In this document: piece by piece, positions 39,037-49,914 of the stretch | How positions within the stretch are numbered: position 1 is the stretch's first letter | How the letters are laid out: each line of letters begins with the position of its first letter | Source of the DNA: an uncultured Pseudodesulfovibrio sp. | GTDB lineage: Bacteria; Desulfobacterota; Desulfovibrionia; Desulfovibrionales; Desulfovibrionaceae | Length of the DNA stretch: 64,000 nt | NCBI RefSeq assembly: GCF_963675635.1 | Contig: NZ_OY776488.1 | Coordinates: 186,001-250,000, forward strand | Direction: 5' to 3' | Notes under the pieces: model-generated | The model's database searches: none | Told to the model about the DNA's origin: nothing | What the model saw: only the letters and a program-made list of their open reading frames with translations | Program-made: the position numbers and the translations under genes

Positions 39037-39972
<936 letters not shown>

Positions 39973-40017
39973 ATTAACCAATAGTAAATAAATTTAAATA
40001 ATTAGGAAGGGATAGAA

Positions 40018-40368
40018 ATGATGATCATGGTAAGAGCAATTGTACGCCCCGAGAAAGCGGATGATGTCCTGGCTGCACTCATGGACAACGGTTTTCCTGC
40101 TGTCACCAAGTACTCTGTGGCTGGCCGCGGCAAGCAGCGCGGCATCAAGATCGGTGAAGTTACTTATGACGAGATTCCCAAGACCATGCTCATGAGCGTG
40201 GTCAAGGCCGAGGATAAGGATTTTGTCATCAATACCATCATGGACGCGGCCCGCTCCGGCGTGAAAGGCGCGTATGGGGATGGCAAGATATTCGTCGCAC
40301 CAGTTGATGACGTCTACACCATTTCCTCCGGCGTGTGTGACACCGCTGTCGCCGAGGAGGCCGCGTAA
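40018..40368 (+). CDS. nifI1: Nitrogenase regulatory PII-like protein NifI1
   Basis: GlnB-family protein of 116 residues (MVRAIVRPEKADDVLAAL, and the C-loop GDGKIFVAPVDDVYTI). Encoded between nifH and nifD, as in methanogens and anaerobic bacteria, NifI1 and NifI2 form a complex that switches nitrogenase off when ammonium is present and releases it with 2-oxoglutarate. The T-loop region (KQRGIKIGEVTYDEIPKTML) differs from ordinary GlnB and has no uridylylated YRG motif. Confidence 0.92.
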   Translation: MMIMVRAIVRPEKADDVLAALMDNGFPAVTKYSVAGRGKQRGIKIGEVTYDEIPKTMLMSVVKAEDKDFVINTIMDAARSGVKGAYGDGKIFVAPVDDVYTISSGVCDTAVAEEAA

Positions 40369-40742
40369 TGAAGGAAGTAATCGCAGTCGTGCGCATGAAC
40401 ATGATGAACAAGACCAAGTCCGCCTTGAACGATGCAGGCATCGATGCCTTCTTCGCTCATGAGGCTCAGGGTCGCGGAAAAGGGTTCGTCAATACGGCCG
40501 TCCTGGAAGGTGCGGAAAGCGGATATGAAGAAGCCGCCGCCGTCCTTGGCGAAAAGGGCAAGTTGTACCCCAAGCGCATGGTAACGGCAGTGGTCCCCGA
40601 CAGATTGGTTTCCGATGTGGTGGAAGCCATCACCAGGGTCAACCAGACCGGCAAGCCGGGCGATGGCAAAATATTCGTCATGCCCATGGGAGACGCCGTG
40701 CGTGTCCGTACCGGAGAAGTCGGCGAAAAGGCCGTAGTTTAA
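40368..40742 (+). CDS. nifI2: Nitrogenase regulatory PII-like protein NifI2
   Basis: Partner of NifI1, 124 residues, starting on the last base of its stop codon (TAATG). The PII pattern MKEVIAVVRMNMMNKTKSAL and TGKPGDGKIFVMPMGDAVRVRTGE is intact. The longer T-loop (NTAVLEGAESGYEEAAAVLGEKGKLYPKRM in outline) is typical of NifI2. It acts post-translationally on NifDK. Confidence 0.92.
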   Translation: MKEVIAVVRMNMMNKTKSALNDAGIDAFFAHEAQGRGKGFVNTAVLEGAESGYEEAAAVLGEKGKLYPKRMVTAVVPDRLVSDVVEAITRVNQTGKPGDGKIFVMPMGDAVRVRTGEVGEKAVV

Positions 40743-40764
40743 GCGTATTTAAGGAGAATTCGAG

Positions 40765-42405
40765 ATGGCAAAGACGACAAAGCTGGCAAAGCTTGACCCC
40801 GCCGAGATCAAAAAGGAGATGCTCGCGAAGTATCCCCCCAAGGTGGCTCGCAAGCGTGCAAAGCAGATAATGATCAACGAAGCCCTGGAGAATGAAACAC
40901 CGCCCGAAATTGTGGCGAACGTCCGCACCATCCCCGGCATCATGACCATGCGAGGCTGCACCTACGCAGGCTGCAAGGGCGTCATCATGGGACCGACCCG
41001 TGATATCGTGAACCTTGTGCACGGTCCCATCGGTTGTAGTTTCTATGCATGGCTCACGCGCCGCAACCAGACGGACGGCGGTGGTCCCGAGGGTGAAAAC
41101 TTCATGCCCTATTGTTTTTCAACGGACATGCAGGACCAGGACATCATCTTCGGTGGAGAAAAGAAACTCGCGGCCGCCGTTCAGGAAGCCTACGACCTCT
41201 TTCACCCCAAGGGCATCGCTATTTTCGCAACCTGTCCCGTTGGACTCATCGGTGATGATATCCACGCCGTAGCCCGTCAGATGAAAGAAAAACTCGGTGA
41301 CTGCAATGTGTTCGCCTTCTCCTGTGAAGGGTACAAGGGCGTGTCCCAGTCAGCCGGTCACCACATCGCTAACAATCAGGTCTTTACGCACCTTGTCGGT
41401 GAAAACACCGAGCCCAAGAAGGGCGAGTACAAGATCAACCTTCTCGGCGAGTACAACATCGGCGGTGACGGTTTCGAGATCGACCGTGTTCTGAAGCTGT
41501 GCGGTATTACCAATATTGCCACCTTCTCCGGCAACTCTTCCTATGACCAGTTTGCTTCGGCGCAACATGCCGATTTGAGCGCTGTCATGTGTCACCGGTC
41601 CATCAACTACGTGGCTGACATGCTTGAAACCAAATACGGCATCCCGTGGATCAAGGTGAACTTCATCGGTGCCGAAGCGACTGCCAAGTCCCTGCGCAAG
41701 ATAGCACAATACTTTGAAGACAAGGCACTGATTGATCGTGTCGAGGAAGTCATTGCAGCGGAGATGCCAGCGGTCAAGGCTGTGGTCGAAGATGTCAGAA
41801 CCCGTACCGAAGGCAAGACTGCCATGATGTTTGTCGGCGGTTCCCGCGCCCATCACTACAACGAACTCTTTGTTGAAATGGGTATGAAGACCATCTCCGC
41901 CGGTTACGAGTTCGGTCATCGTGACGACTACGAAGGACGTCACGTCATCCCGGATCTCAAGGTCGACGCAGATTCCCGAAACATCGAGGAGTTGGTCATC
42001 GAAGCTGACGAAAAATACTACAATCCCCGCAAAACGCCTGAGCAGCTTGAAGCACTGGAGGAATCCGGTCTGAAGTTCAAGCATTACGCCGGGCTGGATG
42101 CAGACATGGATCAGGGAACCATCATTGTTGATGACCTGAACCAGTACGAAGCCGAAAAGCTGGTGGAAATCATGAAACCGGACATCTTCTGCGCCGGTAT
42201 CAAGGAAAAGTTCTCCATCCAGAAACTGGGCATCCCCATGAAACAGTTGCACAGCTACGACTCTGGCGGACCGTATGCCGGGTTCAAGGGCGCCATCAAT
42301 TTCTACAAGGAAATCGATCGTCTCGTGAACAGCAAGGTCTGGAGCTACATGAAAGCCCCATGGCAGGAAAACCCGGAACTTACCGCAACGTTCGTCTGGG
42401 AATAA
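40765..42405 (+). CDS. nifD: Nitrogenase MoFe protein alpha chain
   Basis: 546 residues, longer than the Azotobacter type because of an insert of about 50 residues around 385-440, as known in Clostridium pasteurianum NifD. P-cluster ligands are in MRGCTYAGC, GPIGCSFYAW and ATCPVGLIGDD. FeMo-co ligands are Cys in MCHRSINYV and His in LHSYDSGGPYAG. The active-site SAGHHIANN and Val of CKGVIMGP are present, so this is a Mo enzyme. AAGGAG precedes the ATG. Confidence 0.97.
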   Translation: MAKTTKLAKLDPAEIKKEMLAKYPPKVARKRAKQIMINEALENETPPEIVANVRTIPGIMTMRGCTYAGCKGVIMGPTRDIVNLVHGPIGCSFYAWLTRRNQTDGGGPEGENFMPYCFSTDMQDQDIIFGGEKKLAAAVQEAYDLFHPKGIAIFATCPVGLIGDDIHAVARQMKEKLGDCNVFAFSCEGYKGVSQSAGHHIANNQVFTHLVGENTEPKKGEYKINLLGEYNIGGDGFEIDRVLKLCGITNIATFSGNSSYDQFASAQHADLSAVMCHRSINYVADMLETKYGIPWIKVNFIGAEATAKSLRKIAQYFEDKALIDRVEEVIAAEMPAVKAVVEDVRTRTEGKTAMMFVGGSRAHHYNELFVEMGMKTISAGYEFGHRDDYEGRHVIPDLKVDADSRNIEELVIEADEKYYNPRKTPEQLEALEESGLKFKHYAGLDADMDQGTIIVDDLNQYEAEKLVEIMKPDIFCAGIKEKFSIQKLGIPMKQLHSYDSGGPYAGFKGAINFYKEIDRLVNSKVWSYMKAPWQENPELTATFVWE

Positions 42406-42424
42406 GTAGGGAGATTATAAGATA

Positions 42425-43798
42425 ATGTTACTCAGACACACACCAGAAGAAGTTGCTGAACGCAAGGCCCTGATGATCAACCCTGCCAAGACGTGTCAGC
42501 CTATCGGCGCCATGTATGCCGCACTCGGTATCCACGGTTGTCTGCCCCACAGTCACGGTTCCCAGGGGTGCTGTTCCTATCACAGATCCACGTTGACCCG
42601 GCACTACAAGGAACCGATCCCTGCCGCTACCAGCTCCTTCACCGAAGGCGCATCCGTATTCGGCGGACAGTCCAACCTTGTGCAGGCCATTGATAACATC
42701 TTCACCGTTTACGAACCCGATGTCATCGCAGTGCATACGACCTGCCTGTCCGAGACTATCGGCGACGACCTGAAGCAGATTCGCGACAAGGCCATGAAGG
42801 ACGGCAAAATTCCTGAAGGCAAGACCGTCATCGGCGCACCCACCCCGAGTTATGTCGGTTCACATGTCACTGGTTTCTCCAGCATGGTCAAGGCAATGGC
42901 GGAACTGGCTGAACCGACCGGCACGAAGAACGGCAAGGTCAACGTCATTCCCGGCTGGGTTGAACCCGCTGACATGGCTGAAATCAAGCGTCTCTCCGCA
43001 CTGGTCGGCGTGGATATTACCCTGTTCCCGGATACCTCCGGCGTTCTCGATGCACCGCTGACTGGAGAATATTCCATGTTCCCGCAGGGCGGGGTGACTA
43101 TCCCTGAACTCAAGGGGGCAGGCGATGCCATCGGCACACTGGCTCTGGGCGAGTGGTGTTCGGCAGACGCCGCGCGCTGGCTGGATTCCAAATGCAAGGT
43201 GCCGTGCACAATCCTTGATATGCCTTTCGGATTGGCTGCCACCGACCGTTTCGTCGACGTGTTGCGGACTGTGGCCGGAGTCAACGTGCCCGATACCGTA
43301 GCTCATGAGCGCGGTCAGTTGGTGGATCTCATTTCCGACATGCACCAGTACTTCTACGGCAAGAAAGTGGCCATCTGGGGCGACCCGGATCAGCTCATTG
43401 CCATGACGGAATTCCTGGTCTCCCTGGACATGCAGCCCCTCTATGTCGTCACCGGCACGCCGGGCAAGAAGTTCGAGAAGCGTATTCAGGAGATCTGTGC
43501 CGACCAGCCTTTCGAGGTCAAGGTCAAGGCCAAGGGCGACATGTTCCTGATGCACCAGTGGATCAAGAACGAGCCGGTCGACCTGCTCATCGGCAACACC
43601 TACGGCAAGTATATTGCCCGTGACGAGGATATTCCGTTTCTGCGCTGGGGCTTCCCCATCCTGGATCGCCAGGGGCACCAGTACTTCCCGACAGTCGGCT
43701 ACAAGGGCGGACTTCGATTGCTCGAAAAGATGCTTGATCTTTTCCTGGATCGTAAAGACCGCGACGATTCCGAACAGACCTTCGAGCTCGTCCTCTAA
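42425..43798 (+). CDS. nifK: Nitrogenase MoFe protein beta chain
   Basis: 457 residues, lacking the ~50-residue N-terminal extension of Azotobacter NifK; this matches the clostridial type and complements the long NifD. P-cluster cysteines are in AKTCQPIGAMYAALG, SQGCCSYHRSTL and TTCLSETIGDD. It lies 19 bp after nifD. A 9-bp hairpin (43813-43838) in the gap to the next gene may set the mRNA level of the downstream part. Confidence 0.96.
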   Translation: MLLRHTPEEVAERKALMINPAKTCQPIGAMYAALGIHGCLPHSHGSQGCCSYHRSTLTRHYKEPIPAATSSFTEGASVFGGQSNLVQAIDNIFTVYEPDVIAVHTTCLSETIGDDLKQIRDKAMKDGKIPEGKTVIGAPTPSYVGSHVTGFSSMVKAMAELAEPTGTKNGKVNVIPGWVEPADMAEIKRLSALVGVDITLFPDTSGVLDAPLTGEYSMFPQGGVTIPELKGAGDAIGTLALGEWCSADAARWLDSKCKVPCTILDMPFGLAATDRFVDVLRTVAGVNVPDTVAHERGQLVDLISDMHQYFYGKKVAIWGDPDQLIAMTEFLVSLDMQPLYVVTGTPGKKFEKRIQEICADQPFEVKVKAKGDMFLMHQWIKNEPVDLLIGNTYGKYIARDEDIPFLRWGFPILDRQGHQYFPTVGYKGGLRLLEKMLDLFLDRKDRDDSEQTFELVL

Positions 43799-43871: not shown

Positions 43872-45041
43872 ATGGAACCGACCATCGCATACGTTAACCA
43901 CCCCTGTTTTGGCATCTCATCCCGCAAGAAGGTCGGTCGGATTCACCTGCCCGTTGCTCCCCGTGCCAATGCACGCATCAAGTTCGCGAGTACGGACAAG
44001 CCTTCTTCCGCCATCATGCCGGCTGATGCCCTGAATATGCTGACCCGGACGATCGAGGCGGGCAATCCAGTGGGCATCGTCGGTATTACCGGCCCCGGTG
44101 ATCCCATGGCGGTACCTGAATACACGCTGGAAACATTGCGTCTGGTCCGTGAAAAATATCCGGATATGCCGTTGTGTCTGACAACGATCGGTATCGGCTG
44201 CGCCGAGTATGCCGAGGAGTTGGCAAAAGTAGGCGTGATGCATGTGTCCATACTGGTTGATGCCGTCACACCTGAAGTGGCTGACACGCTGTATGCATGG
44301 ATTCGTCCCGCAAAGCACACCATGCCGCTGTCAAAGGGCGTCGAAGTCCTTCTGAACGAGCAGGCCAGGGCTGTTATCGCGCTGAAAAAGGCCGGTATCA
44401 CAGTCAAGATCAATACCACTGTCTATCCCGGTTACAACGCCGGTCACGTGGAGGAGATTGCCGCGACCATGGCTGCATTGGGTGCGGATATCATGGCCAT
44501 TGTTCCGTATCGTCCCGAGGCTGAATCCGTGGACGTTCCGAATGAACCCGACATGGAATTGATTGCGACCGTCTGCGATCGTGCCGCCCGGCACATGAAT
44601 CTCATGCCCTTGTGGGACCAGTGCGGCGAAAAGATCGTCGGCCTCAGAGAACCCGAAGAGATGGGAAAACCTTCCGATGTCATGCCGAAGCCGACGGCAA
44701 AGCGGCCTAATGTGGCTGTTGCCAGTTCAAACGGCATGGAAGTGGATCTGCATCTGGGACATGCCTCGACATTGCTCATTTACGGGCCTCGCGAAGATGG
44801 TCTCGCCTGTCTGCTGGAGACTCGTCAGGCTCCTGACCCCGGAGCGGGTTCCTCCCGCTGGGAACAGATGGGCGTATTGCTCGAAGACTGTTTCGCCCTG
44901 CTGACCTCCAATGCGGGAGAGAAGCCGAGAAAGAATTTAAGCCGTCTGGGCGTGTCCGTGGTCATCACCGATGGAGAAGTGGAAGGGACCGTGGACATGT
45001 TGTTCGGCGGTGGCAAGAAGAAGGGCAAGTGCCGCAAGTAG
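43872..45041 (+). CDS. NifB paralogue lacking the radical SAM cysteines
   Basis: 389 residues, co-linear with the true NifB at 48646 but with the CxxxCxxC motif gone. The NifB segment PKCNIQCNYCNRKYDC aligns without gaps to PRANARIKFASTDKPS here (Cys to Ala, Ile, Ala and Ser). It keeps the N-terminal HPCF, HLPVAP, ITGPGDP and a late DQCGEK, but loses the GSCGR cysteine and one of the CKRC pair. A NifX/NafY-like domain follows from about residue 275 (VAVASSNGMEVDLHLGHASTLLIYG), with a Lys-rich tail. It cannot carry the SAM cluster; it may hold or hand over an Fe-S precursor. It is co-transcribed with nif genes. Confidence 0.85.
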   Translation: MEPTIAYVNHPCFGISSRKKVGRIHLPVAPRANARIKFASTDKPSSAIMPADALNMLTRTIEAGNPVGIVGITGPGDPMAVPEYTLETLRLVREKYPDMPLCLTTIGIGCAEYAEELAKVGVMHVSILVDAVTPEVADTLYAWIRPAKHTMPLSKGVEVLLNEQARAVIALKKAGITVKINTTVYPGYNAGHVEEIAATMAALGADIMAIVPYRPEAESVDVPNEPDMELIATVCDRAARHMNLMPLWDQCGEKIVGLREPEEMGKPSDVMPKPTAKRPNVAVASSNGMEVDLHLGHASTLLIYGPREDGLACLLETRQAPDPGAGSSRWEQMGVLLEDCFALLTSNAGEKPRKNLSRLGVSVVITDGEVEGTVDMLFGGGKKKGKCRK

Positions 45042-45072: not shown

Positions 45073-45375
45073 ATGGCTATCCCCGGAAGAATGATCATCT
45101 GTTGTCAGAGTTTTCGCGCCAAGGGCGATCCCAAAGGCATCTGTCACAAGCAGACCGACGGTTTCCTGCAATATATCGAAGAAGAAATTATCGACCGCGG
45201 TATCGACGCGCTGGTTGTCGCCACCAGTTGTCTCAAACAGTGCGAATCCGGCCCGATCATGGTTGTCCAGCCTGAGAACTGGTGGTTCAAGGGTGTCGAT
45301 TCCGAAGCCGCCATTGATGAAATTCTTGATGCCCTTGAAGACGGCGAAGCCTGTGCGGACTATTTAGCCGCATAA
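45073..45375 (+). CDS. Thioredoxin-like 2Fe-2S ferredoxin
   Basis: 100 residues with the cluster pattern Cys11-x12-Cys24 and Cys53-x3-Cys57 (CCQSF..., GICHK, TSCLKQC) and the signature ENWWFKGV. It matches the 2Fe-2S ferredoxin family of Clostridium pasteurianum, a protein reported to bind the MoFe protein. AAGGAGAG precedes the ATG. Placed between the NifB-like gene and nifE, it probably serves nitrogenase or cofactor assembly. Confidence 0.88.
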   Translation: MAIPGRMIICCQSFRAKGDPKGICHKQTDGFLQYIEEEIIDRGIDALVVATSCLKQCESGPIMVVQPENWWFKGVDSEAAIDEILDALEDGEACADYLAA

Positions 45376-45391: not shown

Positions 45392-45847
45392 ATGCCTGAA
45401 GCCGTATCCGTTTGTCCCGCAGGACATGAAGACCTTGAGAGTCTGGTTGTATTGCTCGAAACACTGTTTTCCATCGAGGAGGATTTTGTCGTCGATCAGG
45501 CAAAGCAGCGGCGCGGACTGGAACTGATGCTGAACAATGGTCGGGGATGCATCCTTGCCGCGAAAGCTGCTGACGGGACTGTCGTCGGCATGTGTTCGGG
45601 ACAGTTGACGGTTTCCACGGCTGAAGGCGGCCCTGCCGTTTTGATTGAGGACGTCATTGTCCAGCAGGACTGGCAGGGCCAGGGCATCGGGACAAAGCTC
45701 ATGGACGGGATCACCGCATGGGCCAGGGAAAATGAAGTGACCCGGCTTCAACTGCTTGCGGACAGGCAGAACCTCCCGGCCCTTGACTTCTACAAACATC
45801 TTGGATGGCAGCCAACGCAACTGGTCTGTCTGAGAAACCGACTGTAA
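45392..45847 (+). CDS. GNAT acetyltransferase in the nif operon
   Basis: A single-domain GNAT of 151 residues. The acetyl-CoA motif is VQQDWQGQGIGTKLMDG (Q-x-x-G-x-G), preceded by IEDVIV and followed by LPALDFYKHLGWQPTQLV. It lies 16 bp after the ferredoxin gene and 31 bp before nifE, so it is co-transcribed with nif. The acceptor is unknown; it could be a nif protein or a small amine. Confidence 0.85.
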   Translation: MPEAVSVCPAGHEDLESLVVLLETLFSIEEDFVVDQAKQRRGLELMLNNGRGCILAAKAADGTVVGMCSGQLTVSTAEGGPAVLIEDVIVQQDWQGQGIGTKLMDGITAWARENEVTRLQLLADRQNLPALDFYKHLGWQPTQLVCLRNRL

Positions 45848-45878: not shown

Positions 45879-47264
45879 ATGAGTACTACTATATTGGAAG
45901 AAAGAAAGGACCAGATCCACAGGACAGGTGAGGGCGATACCGACATCGCCTGCAACCGGGAGTCACTGGCGGGTGCGGTCAGTCAGCGGGCCTGCGTCTT
46001 TTGCGGCTCCCGTGTGGTGCTCTACCCCATAGCCGACGCCCTGCACCTGGTGCATGGCCCCATCGGCTGCGCGGTGTATACATGGGATATCCGCGGCGCG
46101 CTCTCCAGCGGCCCGGAATTGCACCGCCTTTCATTCTCCACGGATCTGCAGGAACTGGATGTTGTCTTCGGCGGCGAGAAAAAATTGGCAGCCGCTCTGG
46201 ACGAACTTATCGACCGGCACAGCCCCAAGGCGGCCTTTGTCTATTCGACGTGCATTGTCGGTCTCATCGGTGACGATTTGGAAGCGGTTTGCCGAAAAAT
46301 GTCCGAGGAAAAGGGTATCCCCGTTCTGCCGGTGCAGTCCGAAGGATTCAAGGGAAGCAAACGCGAGGGATATCTTGCGGCATGCAAGGCCATGTTCAAG
46401 CTCGTCGGAACGCGTGAGACGACCGGCATATCGCCTGTTTCCATCAATATTCTCGGTGACTTCAATCTGGCCGGAGAAATCTGGATCATTCGCGAATATT
46501 TCGAGCGCATGGGCGTCGAGGTCGTGGCCAACGTGACGGGCGACGGACGTGTCGATGATATCTGCCGCTGCCATGGCGCGGCGCTCAACCTCGTGCAGTG
46601 TTCCGGCGCGACCCTCGATCTCGCCAAGATGATGGAAGAAAAATACGGCACACCACACCTTCGGGTTTCCTATCTCGGCATTGAGGACATGGCGGATTCC
46701 CTCTATCAGGTCGCTGATTTCTTCAAGGACAAAGATCCCGGCATTGTCGCGCGGACCGAAGCATTGGTGCGCGAGGAATTGCAGAAGCTGATGCCGGAGC
46801 TTGCCCGTTATCGCAAGGATCTCGAAGGCAAGAAGGTCGCCATGTACGTGGGCGGTTCCTTCAAGGCGTTCTCTCTGCTCAAGGCATTTCGTCATCTCGG
46901 CATGAAGGTCGTCATGGTCGGCTCCCAGACCGGGACCAAGGAAGACTATGCCGAACTGGAACAGATTGCCGATCCCGGCACGATCATCGTGGATGATGCC
47001 AACCCGTTGGAACTGTCTCAGTTCATCAAGGAAAAGGACGTGGATATTTTTGTGGGCGGCGTGAAAGAACGTCCCATTGCCTTCAAACTCGGCGTGGGGT
47101 TCTGCGATCATAATCACGAACGCAAAGAGGCTCTGGAGGGATTTGTCGGCATGCTCAATTTTGCCCGTGAAATTCATTCCTCGGCCATGTCCCCGGTCTG
47201 GCAGTTCGCGCCGCGTCGCGCCAACCGTATAACTGTCGAGAAAAAGGAGGCCGTCAATGAGTAA
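45879..47264 (+). CDS. nifE: FeMo-co scaffold protein NifE
   Basis: 461 residues, homologous to NifD. Cluster-binding cysteines are in RACVFCGSRVVLYP, GPIGCAVYTW and STCIVGLIGDD. With NifN it forms the scaffold on which the NifB product matures to FeMo-co. It overlaps nifN by eight bases, so the two subunits are translationally coupled. Confidence 0.95.
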   Translation: MSTTILEERKDQIHRTGEGDTDIACNRESLAGAVSQRACVFCGSRVVLYPIADALHLVHGPIGCAVYTWDIRGALSSGPELHRLSFSTDLQELDVVFGGEKKLAAALDELIDRHSPKAAFVYSTCIVGLIGDDLEAVCRKMSEEKGIPVLPVQSEGFKGSKREGYLAACKAMFKLVGTRETTGISPVSINILGDFNLAGEIWIIREYFERMGVEVVANVTGDGRVDDICRCHGAALNLVQCSGATLDLAKMMEEKYGTPHLRVSYLGIEDMADSLYQVADFFKDKDPGIVARTEALVREELQKLMPELARYRKDLEGKKVAMYVGGSFKAFSLLKAFRHLGMKVVMVGSQTGTKEDYAELEQIADPGTIIVDDANPLELSQFIKEKDVDIFVGGVKERPIAFKLGVGFCDHNHERKEALEGFVGMLNFAREIHSSAMSPVWQFAPRRANRITVEKKEAVNE

Positions 47265-48630
47265 GGTGATCACCAAGGCTTCCAAGCCGAATTATGTGTC
47301 CACCACCAACGCCTGCAAACTGTGCACGCCGCTCGGAGCCTCCATGGCTTTCCGGGGCGTCGAAGGGGCCATCCCGTTCCTGCATGGTTCCCAGGGCTGC
47401 GCGACCTACATGCGTCGCTACGTTATTTCGCATTTTCGTGAGCCGGTGGATATAGCTTCCTCGGCTCTGGGGGAAAAGCAGGCGGTCTATGGCGGCGGTG
47501 TGAACCTCAAGAAAGGTGCACTCAATGTCATGAAGAAATACGAACCCAAGCTCATCGGTGTGGCGACCACCTGTCTGACCGAGACTATCGGTGACGATGT
47601 TCCCATGATCCTGAAGGAGTTCTTTGACGAATTCAGCGACCTTGATCTGCCGGAAATCGTGCATGTTTCCACCCCCAGTTACAACGGTACCCACACCGAC
47701 GGCTGGCACGGTGCGGTCCGTTCTCTTGTGGAACAGTTGTGTACAACCAGGGCTGCAGACGCCGAGCGGGTGAACATTCTGCCCAACATGGTGTCCTGCG
47801 AAGACGTTCGGCATTTGCAGGATATCTGTCGCGATTTTGGTATCGGAGCAACGATCTTGCCCGATATTTCAGAAACGCTCGATGGCCCGGCTCTGGAGGA
47901 TTATGTGAAGATTCCTTCGGGCGGCACGACATTGAACGAGATCAGGGAAATGTCCGGTTCCAGGGCGACCATCGAGTTTGGCCGCTGTTTGCCAAAGCAT
48001 ACAGGAGGCACGAGTCTGCAAACTGCTTTTGGTGTGAAAAATCATCGTATCGGTCTGCCCATGGGCTTGCGCGAATCGGATCGTTTCTTTGAAACCCTCG
48101 AAGATATTACCGGCGACTCTATGCCGCAGCGGTATGAATTGGAACGCGGTCGACTGGTGGACGCTTATGTGGACGGGCATAAATACGTGTTCGGCAAACG
48201 GGCAGTTGTCTACGGCGAAGAAGATCTTGTCGCCGGACTTTGTGCTTTTTTGGCCGAGATAGGTGTGGATGTCGTGCTCGCAGGTACGGGGTCACGCAAC
48301 AAGGGACTCGAAGCCGCCATCGCTTCGGTCACGAACGGTGTGGCCCGTATGGCTCCTCAGGTGCGGGAGGGAGTGGATTTTCATGATATCGCCGAAGAAG
48401 CAGCGGCCCTGAAACCCGACCTGCTTATCGGGCATTCCAAAGGGTATCGTTACGCCAAGGAATGGAACATCCCAATTATCCGTGTCGGTTTCCCCATTCA
48501 TGACCGATTCGGAGGCCAGCGCATCCTGCATCTTGGCTACAAAGGTGCGCTCAACTTGTTTGACATGATCGTCAACGCGGTCATCGAGAAGAAACAGTCT
48601 GATAGCGATATCGGTTACGGCTACATATAA
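47257..48630 (+). CDS. nifN: FeMo-co scaffold protein NifN
   Basis: 457 residues, homologous to NifK. It has TNACKLCTPLGA, GSQGCATYMRRYV and TTCLTETIGDD at the positions of the NifK cluster cysteines. There is no fused NifX domain at the C-terminus, which ends soon after DRFGGQRILHLGYKGAL; NifX-like domains are instead found on NifB and the NifB paralogue. Confidence 0.95.
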   Translation: MSKVITKASKPNYVSTTNACKLCTPLGASMAFRGVEGAIPFLHGSQGCATYMRRYVISHFREPVDIASSALGEKQAVYGGGVNLKKGALNVMKKYEPKLIGVATTCLTETIGDDVPMILKEFFDEFSDLDLPEIVHVSTPSYNGTHTDGWHGAVRSLVEQLCTTRAADAERVNILPNMVSCEDVRHLQDICRDFGIGATILPDISETLDGPALEDYVKIPSGGTTLNEIREMSGSRATIEFGRCLPKHTGGTSLQTAFGVKNHRIGLPMGLRESDRFFETLEDITGDSMPQRYELERGRLVDAYVDGHKYVFGKRAVVYGEEDLVAGLCAFLAEIGVDVVLAGTGSRNKGLEAAIASVTNGVARMAPQVREGVDFHDIAEEAAALKPDLLIGHSKGYRYAKEWNIPIIRVGFPIHDRFGGQRILHLGYKGALNLFDMIVNAVIEKKQSDSDIGYGYI

Positions 48631-48645
48631 AGACAGGAGAGCATC

Positions 48646-49914
48646 ATGACGAAAGACACCACCAAGCACCCATGTTTCAATAAGGAAACCGCAGGAAGTT
48701 GCGGTCGAGTTCATCTCCCGGTCGCACCGAAATGCAATATTCAGTGTAATTACTGCAATCGCAAGTATGATTGCGTGAACGAGTCCCGGCCCGGTGTGAC
48801 CAGTGGCATTCTCAAGCCGTATCAGGCCGCCGAATACATGGACAAGGTACTGGCGAAAGAACCCCGTATCACTGTGGCGGGTATCGCTGGTCCCGGTGAC
48901 CCTTTTGCCAATCCCGCCGAAGTGCTTGAAACCATGCGTCTGCTCAATGAGAAACACCCGCACCTGCTGTTCTGCCTGTCCAGCAATGGTATGGGTATCT
49001 TGCCATATCTCGATGACATTGCCGCACTTGGTGTGTCTCATGTGACGATCACCATGTCTGCCGTGGACCCGGTTATCGGAGCGAAAATATACGCCTGGGT
49101 CAAGGACGGCAATGTTGTTTATCGCGGTGAACAGGGTGCCAAGATTCTGCTTGAGCGCCAGCTTGCGGCTATCAAGGGCCTCAAGGAACGGGGTATTACG
49201 GTCAAGGTCAATTCCATCATTATCCCCGGCATCAACGATGAACACATCGTCGAAGTCGCTCAAGTCGCCGCAGAACTCGGCGCGGATATCCAGAACATGA
49301 TCCCGATCAAGCCTACGGCTGACACGCCTTTTGCCGGAATTCCAGAACCCGGCAAGGAGACGGTATTGCCGTTGCGTAGGGAAGCTGGTGTGTTTATCGA
49401 GCAAATGACTCATTGCAAGCGGTGCCGGGCGGATGCTGTTGGTCTGCTGGGTGATGACCAGTCCGCATCTCTGTGCGGCACGCTTCGGGCGTGTTCCAAA
49501 CTCAAGCCTCTGGATGTGGAAATGGCCCGTCCTTATGTGGCTGTCGCCACCCGCGAGGGCATGCTTGTCAATCAGCACCTGGGTGAGGCCAAGGGTTTTC
49601 AGATATGGGGTGAAGCAGATGGCGCATTCCGTCTGGTCGAAGACCGTCAGGCTCCCAAATCGGGTTGCGGTCCTCAGCGTTGGACCGATCTCGCCACAAC
49701 ACTCAAGGATTGTCGCGCGGTCCTGGTTGCCGCTGTGGGTGAAACTCCCCAGATGCTTCTCGAAGAGCATGGCGTCAAAACCCATGTCGTGAACGGCTTT
49801 ATCGAAGACGGCCTCCGGGCTGTGTACCATGGAGGTGATTTGGCATCGCTGAAGGGTCGACGAAGCGGTATCGGTGGTGCGTGCTGCACTGGCACCGGGA
49901 CAAGCTGCGGGTAG
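48646..49914 (+). CDS. nifB: FeMo-co biosynthesis protein NifB (radical SAM-NifX fusion)
   Basis: 422 residues. It makes NifB-co, the 8Fe-9S-C precursor. The radical SAM motif is CNIQCNYC, with the additional K-cluster cysteines in HPCFNKETAGSCGR, RKYDC and THCKRCRADAVG, plus IAGPGDP in the SAM pocket. A NifX-like domain begins near residue 300 (VAVATREGMLVNQHLGEAKGFQIWG). The C-terminus is Gly/Cys rich (GGACCTGTGTSCG). It is last gene of the operon and is followed by a strong terminator. Confidence 0.96.
   Translation: MTKDTTKHPCFNKETAGSCGRVHLPVAPKCNIQCNYCNRKYDCVNESRPGVTSGILKPYQAAEYMDKVLAKEPRITVAGIAGPGDPFANPAEVLETMRLLNEKHPHLLFCLSSNGMGILPYLDDIAALGVSHVTITMSAVDPVIGAKIYAWVKDGNVVYRGEQGAKILLERQLAAIKGLKERGITVKVNSIIIPGINDEHIVEVAQVAAELGADIQNMIPIKPTADTPFAGIPEPGKETVLPLRREAGVFIEQMTHCKRCRADAVGLLGDDQSASLCGTLRACSKLKPLDVEMARPYVAVATREGMLVNQHLGEAKGFQIWGEADGAFRLVEDRQAPKSGCGPQRWTDLATTLKDCRAVLVAAVGETPQMLLEEHGVKTHVVNGFIEDGLRAVYHGGDLASLKGRRSGIGGACCTGTGTSCG

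Follow-up and report, generated by a model that had tools for sequence, protein, structure and literature searches.

Why would a nif operon that contains a working nifB also contain a second nifB-like gene without the radical-SAM cysteines? The question is raised by an open frame at 43872..45041 of the window, the whole 64,000-nucleotide stretch of DNA from an uncultured Pseudodesulfovibrio sp. that was analysed; all features of the window given below lie on its forward (+) strand. The frame has an ATG start and encodes a protein of 389 aa, referred to here as the paralogue. Full-length alignment with the NifB encoded at 48646-49914 gave 34% identity over 396 columns (E 3e-74), confirming the kinship along the whole length that had been claimed in a first-pass annotation of the DNA.

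The paralogue and its operon

The canonical NifB (48646..49914, 422 aa) contains CxxxCxxC and scores 381.8 bits against TIGR01290 (cut-off 343.65), compared with 168 bits, below that cut-off, for the paralogue. It begins 3.6 kb after the end of the paralogue and 4.8 kb after its start. The operon order is nifH-nifI1-nifI2-nifD-nifK-paralogue-ferredoxin-GNAT-nifE-nifN-nifB, with the operon head from nifH to nifK (39058..43798) and nifE-nifN (45879..48630) identified by profile matches. nifK (42425..43798, TIGR01286) lies directly 5' of the paralogue across a 73-base gap. Directly 3' is the gene for a [2Fe-2S] ferredoxin-like protein (45073..45375; NF041612 47.8 bits, below the cut-off of 150), followed by that for a GNAT acetyltransferase (45392..45847, PF00583), a common next gene; the GNAT gene follows the ferredoxin in many nif operons, whether the paralogue is present or absent.

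Homology to nifH sets in near 39142, about 28 residues into the longest nifH ORF, which starts at 39058. A sigma-54-like site with one mismatch (39081-39096; eight such sites occur in the window, with 2.7 expected) lies 5' of the homologous start and thus between the two nifH starts, which suggests that the later start is probably the true one and that the operon is probably sigma-54 driven.

Loss of the radical-SAM site

The barrel domain of the paralogue (about residues 10-262, 43899..44657) was recognised by PF04055 and keeps GPGDP, Q164 and N189, but the match starts at profile position 29, compared with position 2 in canonical NifB, and the domain is predicted to be inactive. The lost CxxxCxxC site corresponds to residues 30-39 (43959..43988), where A32, I36 and A39 stand in place of the three cysteines: NifB Cys30 aligns with Ala32, Cys34 with Ile36, and Cys37 with Ala39 in two alignments and a gap in the third. 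NifB Cys43, a K1 ligand by alignment, falls in a gap in all three, as part of a 10-residue shortening, which two of them divide into gaps of 7 and 3 columns. The first description, in which the three cysteines and the next one are all replaced, thus holds for the loss of the three radical-SAM cysteines but not for the next, Cys43. ExRP is also absent from the window paralogue, the alignments giving TDKP or a gap there.

All three radical-SAM cysteines are absent in each of the 28 aligned Pseudodesulfovibrio paralogues. A larger conservation set was obtained by pooling all loci, which gave 92 paralogue rows or, less four duplicates, 88 distinct sequences, for comparison with 54 NifBs. None of the three cysteines is found in 75 of the 88, one in 13, and two or more in none. 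A read error or a loss in one strain is ruled out by these counts.

Among 60 barrel positions invariant in NifB (at least 96%), 13 are kept in at least 90% of the paralogues and 21, the catalytic motifs among them, in fewer than 20%. Over the 92 rows, duplicates included, NifB Cys43, E46, R48, P49, T136, N217, Q253, H256, C257, R261 and A264 have each been retained in 0-1%, the ExRP residues E46, R48 and P49 being at 0% in columns that are alignment-dependent. GPGDP is kept in at least 90% of these rows, and A81 of AGPG in 12%. The TxTxN motif is missing (T134 77%, T136 0%; SILVD in the window paralogue), as is Cx2CRxDAxG on the K2 side (C257 about 1%, C260 40%, R261 about 1%, D263 18%, A264 0%). 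With the cluster site and the catalytic motifs lost, the paralogue should, by established radical-SAM chemistry, perform neither SAM cleavage nor carbide insertion, which agrees with the earlier proposal that it is non-catalytic.

Cysteines left in the window paralogue include Cys12 (HPC), Cys251 (DQC), Cys102, Cys313 and Cys340; the first-pass annotation had counted only those of HPC and DQC and had suggested them as cluster ligands. For Methanosarcina NifB, the relevant passages of PMC7145814 and PMC6053413 assign C50/C54/C57 to the SAM cluster, C30/C63/C129 and H43 to K1, and C264/C274/C277 to K2. Mapping of these ligands by alignment onto the Pseudodesulfovibrio paralogues revealed that three K1 ligands remain and that the SAM-cluster site is lost entirely, along with one K1 cysteine and some of K2. 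Cys102 aligns with the third K1 cysteine, and the HPC His, the HPC Cys and the HLP His are present in 28 of 28 members of the genus. HPC belongs to the NifB motif fingerprint of PMC5715403; across the 88 paralogues, its Cys occurs in 64 and its His in 32, at columns where the alignment is uncertain outside Pseudodesulfovibrio, and Cys251 of DQC, on the K2 side, in 36. Because they are clade-bound, the HPC and DQC cysteines cannot carry a function common to the paralogue family, and family-wide cluster binding through them was ruled out.

A more restricted form of the idea is that Cys12, His25 and Cys102 bind a K1-like [4Fe-4S] cluster or an 8Fe cluster, feeding NifB or storing its product. Three of the four K1 ligands (Methanosarcina Cys30, His43 and Cys129) are kept in 29 of the 88 sequences while the radical-SAM cysteines are lost, namely in 27 of the 28 from Pseudodesulfovibrio, in a Desulfovibrio MAG (L040) and in Halodesulfovibrio (L064, with one radical-SAM cysteine left). 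The set is missing in the other 59, and the column of the fourth ligand (Methanosarcina Cys63) is never Cys, being a gap in 86 of the 88; a scaffold of this kind is therefore at best a lineage-specific extra, and we regard it as very improbable. The Halodesulfovibrio paralogue (L064, 4001-5152) retains part of the deleted loop in addition to its one radical-SAM cysteine, and may be an intermediate, possibly an early form.

Conservation of the NifX-like tail

The C-terminal part of the paralogue (about residues 276-382, 44697..45017) is a NifX-like domain (PF02579 33.9 bits, cut-off 26.3) containing His294 and Cys340. All 11 NifB-invariant tail positions are kept in the paralogues, compared with 13 of 60 in the barrel, and the conserved function thus seems to reside in the tail together with a maintained barrel fold. 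Among the 88 paralogues, His294 and Cys340 are present in all and Cys313 in 80. Thirteen positions are specific to the paralogues (at least 90% of the 92 rows), nine of them in the tail.

A search of the tail against solved structures returned two matches, both weak, 1p90 (E 0.069) and Azotobacter NifX 9ian (E 0.14). The database entry for 1p90 is a hypothetical protein, which we take to be the NafY core domain. His294 (codon 44751..44753) aligns with the His of the HFG motif in both structures, corresponding to His35 of NifX, and is thus a predicted ligand of NifB-co/FeMo-co. NifX is described in PMC13128457, in its account of the NifEN-NifX structure, as passing NifB-co to NifEN, with His35 coordinating the apical iron at one apex of the cluster. 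The same account has residues Asp144-Glu158 of Azotobacter NifX bind a positive patch on NifE. The C-terminus of the paralogue is basic in 88 of 88 sequences (median +5), so this tethering is not copied and any contact with NifEN would differ.

With the NCBIfam NifX model TIGR02663, the window paralogue gave no match at E 0.001, and one of 49 members did (E 8.4e-4). The nif operon of the window contains no standalone NifX-like gene, and the whole-protein search of the 29 Pseudodesulfovibrio genomes that carry the paralogue found no standalone tail, except in G008, where the gene is seemingly split across two contigs. Elsewhere in the window genome, PF02579 matches four further places outside the nif operon, one of them below the cut-off, and two of these four proteins have the HFG motif, making further carriers possible in this genome.

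Distribution and company of canonical NifB

In a search of 60 genomes, the paralogue was found in 29 of 36 from Pseudodesulfovibrio, that of the window included, with no stop codons inside the matches in the genus. Five of the seven non-carriers lack NifB by TIGR01290 (G005, G011, G015, G025 and G035; best 27 bits). The other two, G009 and G031, possess NifB together with a nif cluster whose ferredoxin gene comes straight after nifK. Among the 29 carriers, canonical NifB was detected in 27, the exceptions being G020 and G029, which are 87% and 82% complete.

Across the phylum Desulfobacterota, the paralogue occurs in at least 17 of 395 sampled genomes, from at least seven families; the figure is a lower bound because at most four candidates were scored per genome. 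Fifteen of the 17 are rows of at least 384 bits; the other two, G424 (335 bits) and G356 (in two pieces), were recognised from their loci. All 17 also encode canonical NifB: 14 score over the TIGR01290 cut-off, and the remainder are the window genome and G435 and G356, in which NifB is known from C-terminal fragments at contig edges. The paralogue is thus accompanied by canonical NifB in the genus, in the phylum sample and in three further genomes, in all but two incomplete genomes.

A contig scan gave 553 loci, and among the best 80 of these, 58 have the paralogue, and the other 22 have canonical NifB alone; within these 80, canonical NifBs intermix below about 41% identity. The carriers among the best 80 are recorded as Pseudodesulfovibrio, Desulfovibrio, Halodesulfovibrio, Desulfobulbaceae, Desulfocapsaceae, Candidatus Electrothrix (cable bacteria), Desulfarculaceae, and unclassified Deltaproteobacteria or Proteobacteria. 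The cysteine-less NifB paralogue is a family trait of several sulfate-reducer groups with nif genes.

Other NifB-like frames were seen in the searches. Barrel-only ORFs of 318 and 345 aa (L153 1983-2939 in G013 and L152 1050-2087 in G231) occur in genomes that also encode a two-domain NifB, and possibly serve another nitrogenase or another use. In G394 (L149 2891-5650), NifB lies within a 919-aa frame, and several other genomes of genus g15 have such frames of 928-989 aa, probably a fusion.

Gene order in relatives

With the window excluded, the first recognised nif gene 5' of the paralogue is nifK in 82 of 87 loci, and the ferredoxin is the next recognised gene 3' of it in 85, the other two loci ending there. 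Of the five exceptions on the 5' side, L061 and L071 start near a contig edge, and L079, L080 and L086 (Desulfobulbaceae, Electrothrix) have no nifK within about 4 kb upstream. In these last three, the paralogue, ferredoxin and GNAT genes remain together away from nifK; their genomes contain nifD matches (two over the cut-off and one in two pieces) and canonical NifB. In G455, the paralogue, nifD and nifB lie on a single contig within 20 kb.

The place after nifK is occupied by related proteins in other operons. Three genomes of g12, another genus of the same taxonomic order (L030-L032), encode a NifX-like protein of 115-128 aa between nifK and the ferredoxin, 44-46% identical to the paralogue tail. 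In Pantoea, a 'NifB/NifX family' protein, presumably NifY, follows nifK and nifT. NafY and NifY resemble the paralogue in having two domains, a NifX-like C-terminal half and a place after nifK; unlike in NafY, the N-terminal domain of the paralogue is a NifB barrel.

The paralogue might accordingly be a counterpart of these proteins that binds apo-NifDK and aids insertion of FeMo-co, its barrel replacing the N-terminal domain of NafY. Both the position behind nifK and the Pantoea arrangement favour such a role, and it agrees with the gene order almost as closely as that of a NifB-co carrier does. It is less easily reconciled with the loci in which the paralogue stands apart from nifK and keeps company with the ferredoxin and GNAT genes, or with the barrel itself, which is that of NifB and whose predicted partner (PMC13031127) is NifEN. 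On balance, we consider a NafY-like role at NifDK unlikely.

Phylogeny and selection

A barrel tree was built from 34 paralogues and 32 of the 54 NifBs. The two lie on opposite sides of one branch (support 100/99) in this unrooted tree, which contains long rows for L140_P, L137_P, L138_P and L153_B. A single origin of the paralogue is the simplest reading of the tree. Repeated independent loss of the cysteines is not required, as all 34 sampled paralogues fall on one side of that branch. The tail tree, of 107 columns, groups the paralogues with support of only 76/0 and places the standalone proteins of L030-L032 with NifB tails (90/48) rather than with paralogue tails; with so few columns, it does not decide whether the tail and the barrel have a common history.

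Median dN/dS values were calculated from nine genomes, using pairs with dS below 1.5, the pair sets differing slightly between genes. The paralogue gave 0.395 (28 pairs), about twice the value for NifB (0.197, 23 pairs). Values for the neighbouring genes were 0.118 for nifK (35 pairs), 0.139 for nifE (33), 0.199 for nifN (23), 0.140 for the ferredoxin (27) and 0.078 for nifH (31). Across all 28 members of the genus, the median for the paralogue was 0.317 (295 of 378 pairs). In the 14 closest pairs, dN/dS was 0.12-0.45 for the barrel and 0.03-0.35 for the tail, the tail being lower in 12. The paralogue is thus under purifying selection, yet more loosely constrained than its neighbours.

The first-pass annotation had taken the intact frame and the operon position to argue against decay, and the comparative data bear this out. 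A slowly decaying, functionless duplicate could account for a dN/dS about twice that of NifB and for the absence of the gene from G009 and G031. However, all 88 distinct paralogues are open (L061 being cut by a contig end), each of the best 80 of 553 loci has an open paralogue or NifB frame, the matches in the genus are free of stops, the place in the operon is common, dN/dS is well below 1, and 13 paralogue-specific positions are held at 90% or more. Decay is extremely unlikely.

Predicted fold

The predicted structure of the paralogue alone (pLDDT 86, pTM 0.75) consists of a NifB barrel and a NifX-like domain. The five best PDB rows are all NifB, from four entries, with TM by target length of 0.79-0.93. 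After NifB, the model matches other radical-SAM enzymes and the NifX chain 9ian_F (E 6e-7).

A full NifB-like fold might allow the paralogue to act as a regulator: without activity of its own, it would adjust the supply of NifB-co by pairing with NifB or by competing with it for its docking site on NifEN. The presence of canonical NifB alongside wherever checked, except in two incomplete genomes, would suit this. A pure regulator would, however, have no need of a cofactor ligand kept in 88 of 88 sequences or of the intact 11 tail positions, and PMC7145814 describes the NifB variants of Methanosarcina as monomeric. Such regulation is therefore rather improbable.

A proposed role in NifB-co transfer

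A carrier is the best reading of a presumably inactive NifB that is retained beside a working one and whose aligned NifB-co ligand is intact. We tentatively propose, with slightly less than even confidence, that the paralogue is a NifB-derived pseudoenzyme that carries NifB-co as NifX does and is docked by its dead barrel. The working NifB would make NifB-co, which His294 in the tail of the paralogue would take from it. The NifB-shaped barrel would then dock to a partner of NifB itself, either the valley of NifEN or its homologue NifDK, which is encoded alongside the paralogue, and the docked protein would hold the cluster or hand it on rather than make it. In PMC13031127, docking in the NifEN valley is predicted for a NifB that consists of the barrel alone, which suggests a possible purpose for the dead barrel. 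The paralogue possibly takes the place of a separate NifX protein, such as the g12 protein found at the same place in the operon. A carrier or chaperone of NifB-co was among the roles first suggested for it, and is the one favoured by the conserved NifX-type His and the 11 tail positions.

Several observations count against a carrier. NifB itself has a tail of this type, so that the tail of the paralogue may be conserved on other grounds. The dN/dS of the paralogue is about twice that of NifB, and the nif-bearing genomes G009 and G031 manage without the gene. The NifX model recognises just the one member in 49, other PF02579 proteins are possible carriers, and the tail tree groups the paralogues with support of no more than 76/0 and puts L030-L032 among the NifB tails. 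A carrier would be compatible with a modest phenotype, given that NifX is dispensable for diazotrophic growth in Azotobacter (as summarised in PMC13128457) and that joint loss of nifX and nafY is severe in Leptolyngbya (PMC6428710).

The emptied barrel might itself be a second site, with the [8Fe-9S-C] cluster or a 4Fe precursor bound in the NifB cavity and the tail His as a ligand, making the paralogue a storage and hand-over station between NifB and NifEN or NifDK. We know of no described nitrogenase pathway with a dedicated station of this kind, and judge the proposal distinctly improbable.

Relation to known systems

The paralogue shares with two-domain NifB (TIGR01290) its fold, domain order, location in a nif operon and a NifX-like tail with His and Cys, and differs in lacking CxxxCxxC, ExRP and CxxCRxDA and in the deletion of the fourth K1 cysteine. 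It resembles NifX in its NifX-like domain, with the putative cofactor-binding His aligned, and in the place that a standalone NifX-like protein takes in the three g12 genomes. Unlike NifX, which is small and single-domain, it has 389 aa, a basic C-terminus and, ahead of the NifX-like domain, a NifB-like barrel of about 250 residues. A radical-SAM fold serving as a metallocofactor chaperone has a precedent in HemW, but HemW, as outlined in PMC10320005, keeps a [4Fe-4S] cluster and carries heme, whereas the paralogue is without the cysteines.

In a survey of 390 putative NifBs, Arragain et al. 2017 (PMC5715403) dropped 28% for missing motifs, mostly Cx3Cx2C, and considered them misannotated NifX. 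By that description, the dropped sequences are like the paralogue in combining a NifX domain with the lack of a radical-SAM motif; the paralogue, for its part, has a barrel, folded in silico. Beyond this remark, the open-access text searched describes no conserved cysteine-less NifB homologue.

The paralogue is apparently already in print as a nifB. The portion of PMC11505543 that presents the nif cluster of Pseudodesulfovibrio lists nifB_1 and nifB_2 with no comment there on the motif, and by place and content one of the two is taken to be the paralogue gene. If the paralogue were counted as NifB, searches for diazotrophs would be misled, as would those for NifB parts for engineering. How NifB-co exits NifB and is transferred to NifEN is a live question, addressed in two structural papers of 2026 (PMC13128457, PMC13031127). 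If the paralogue is indeed a carrier, it would be a natural NifB without the chemistry, one that separates docking and carrying from catalysis and would offer a tool to trap the hand-over.
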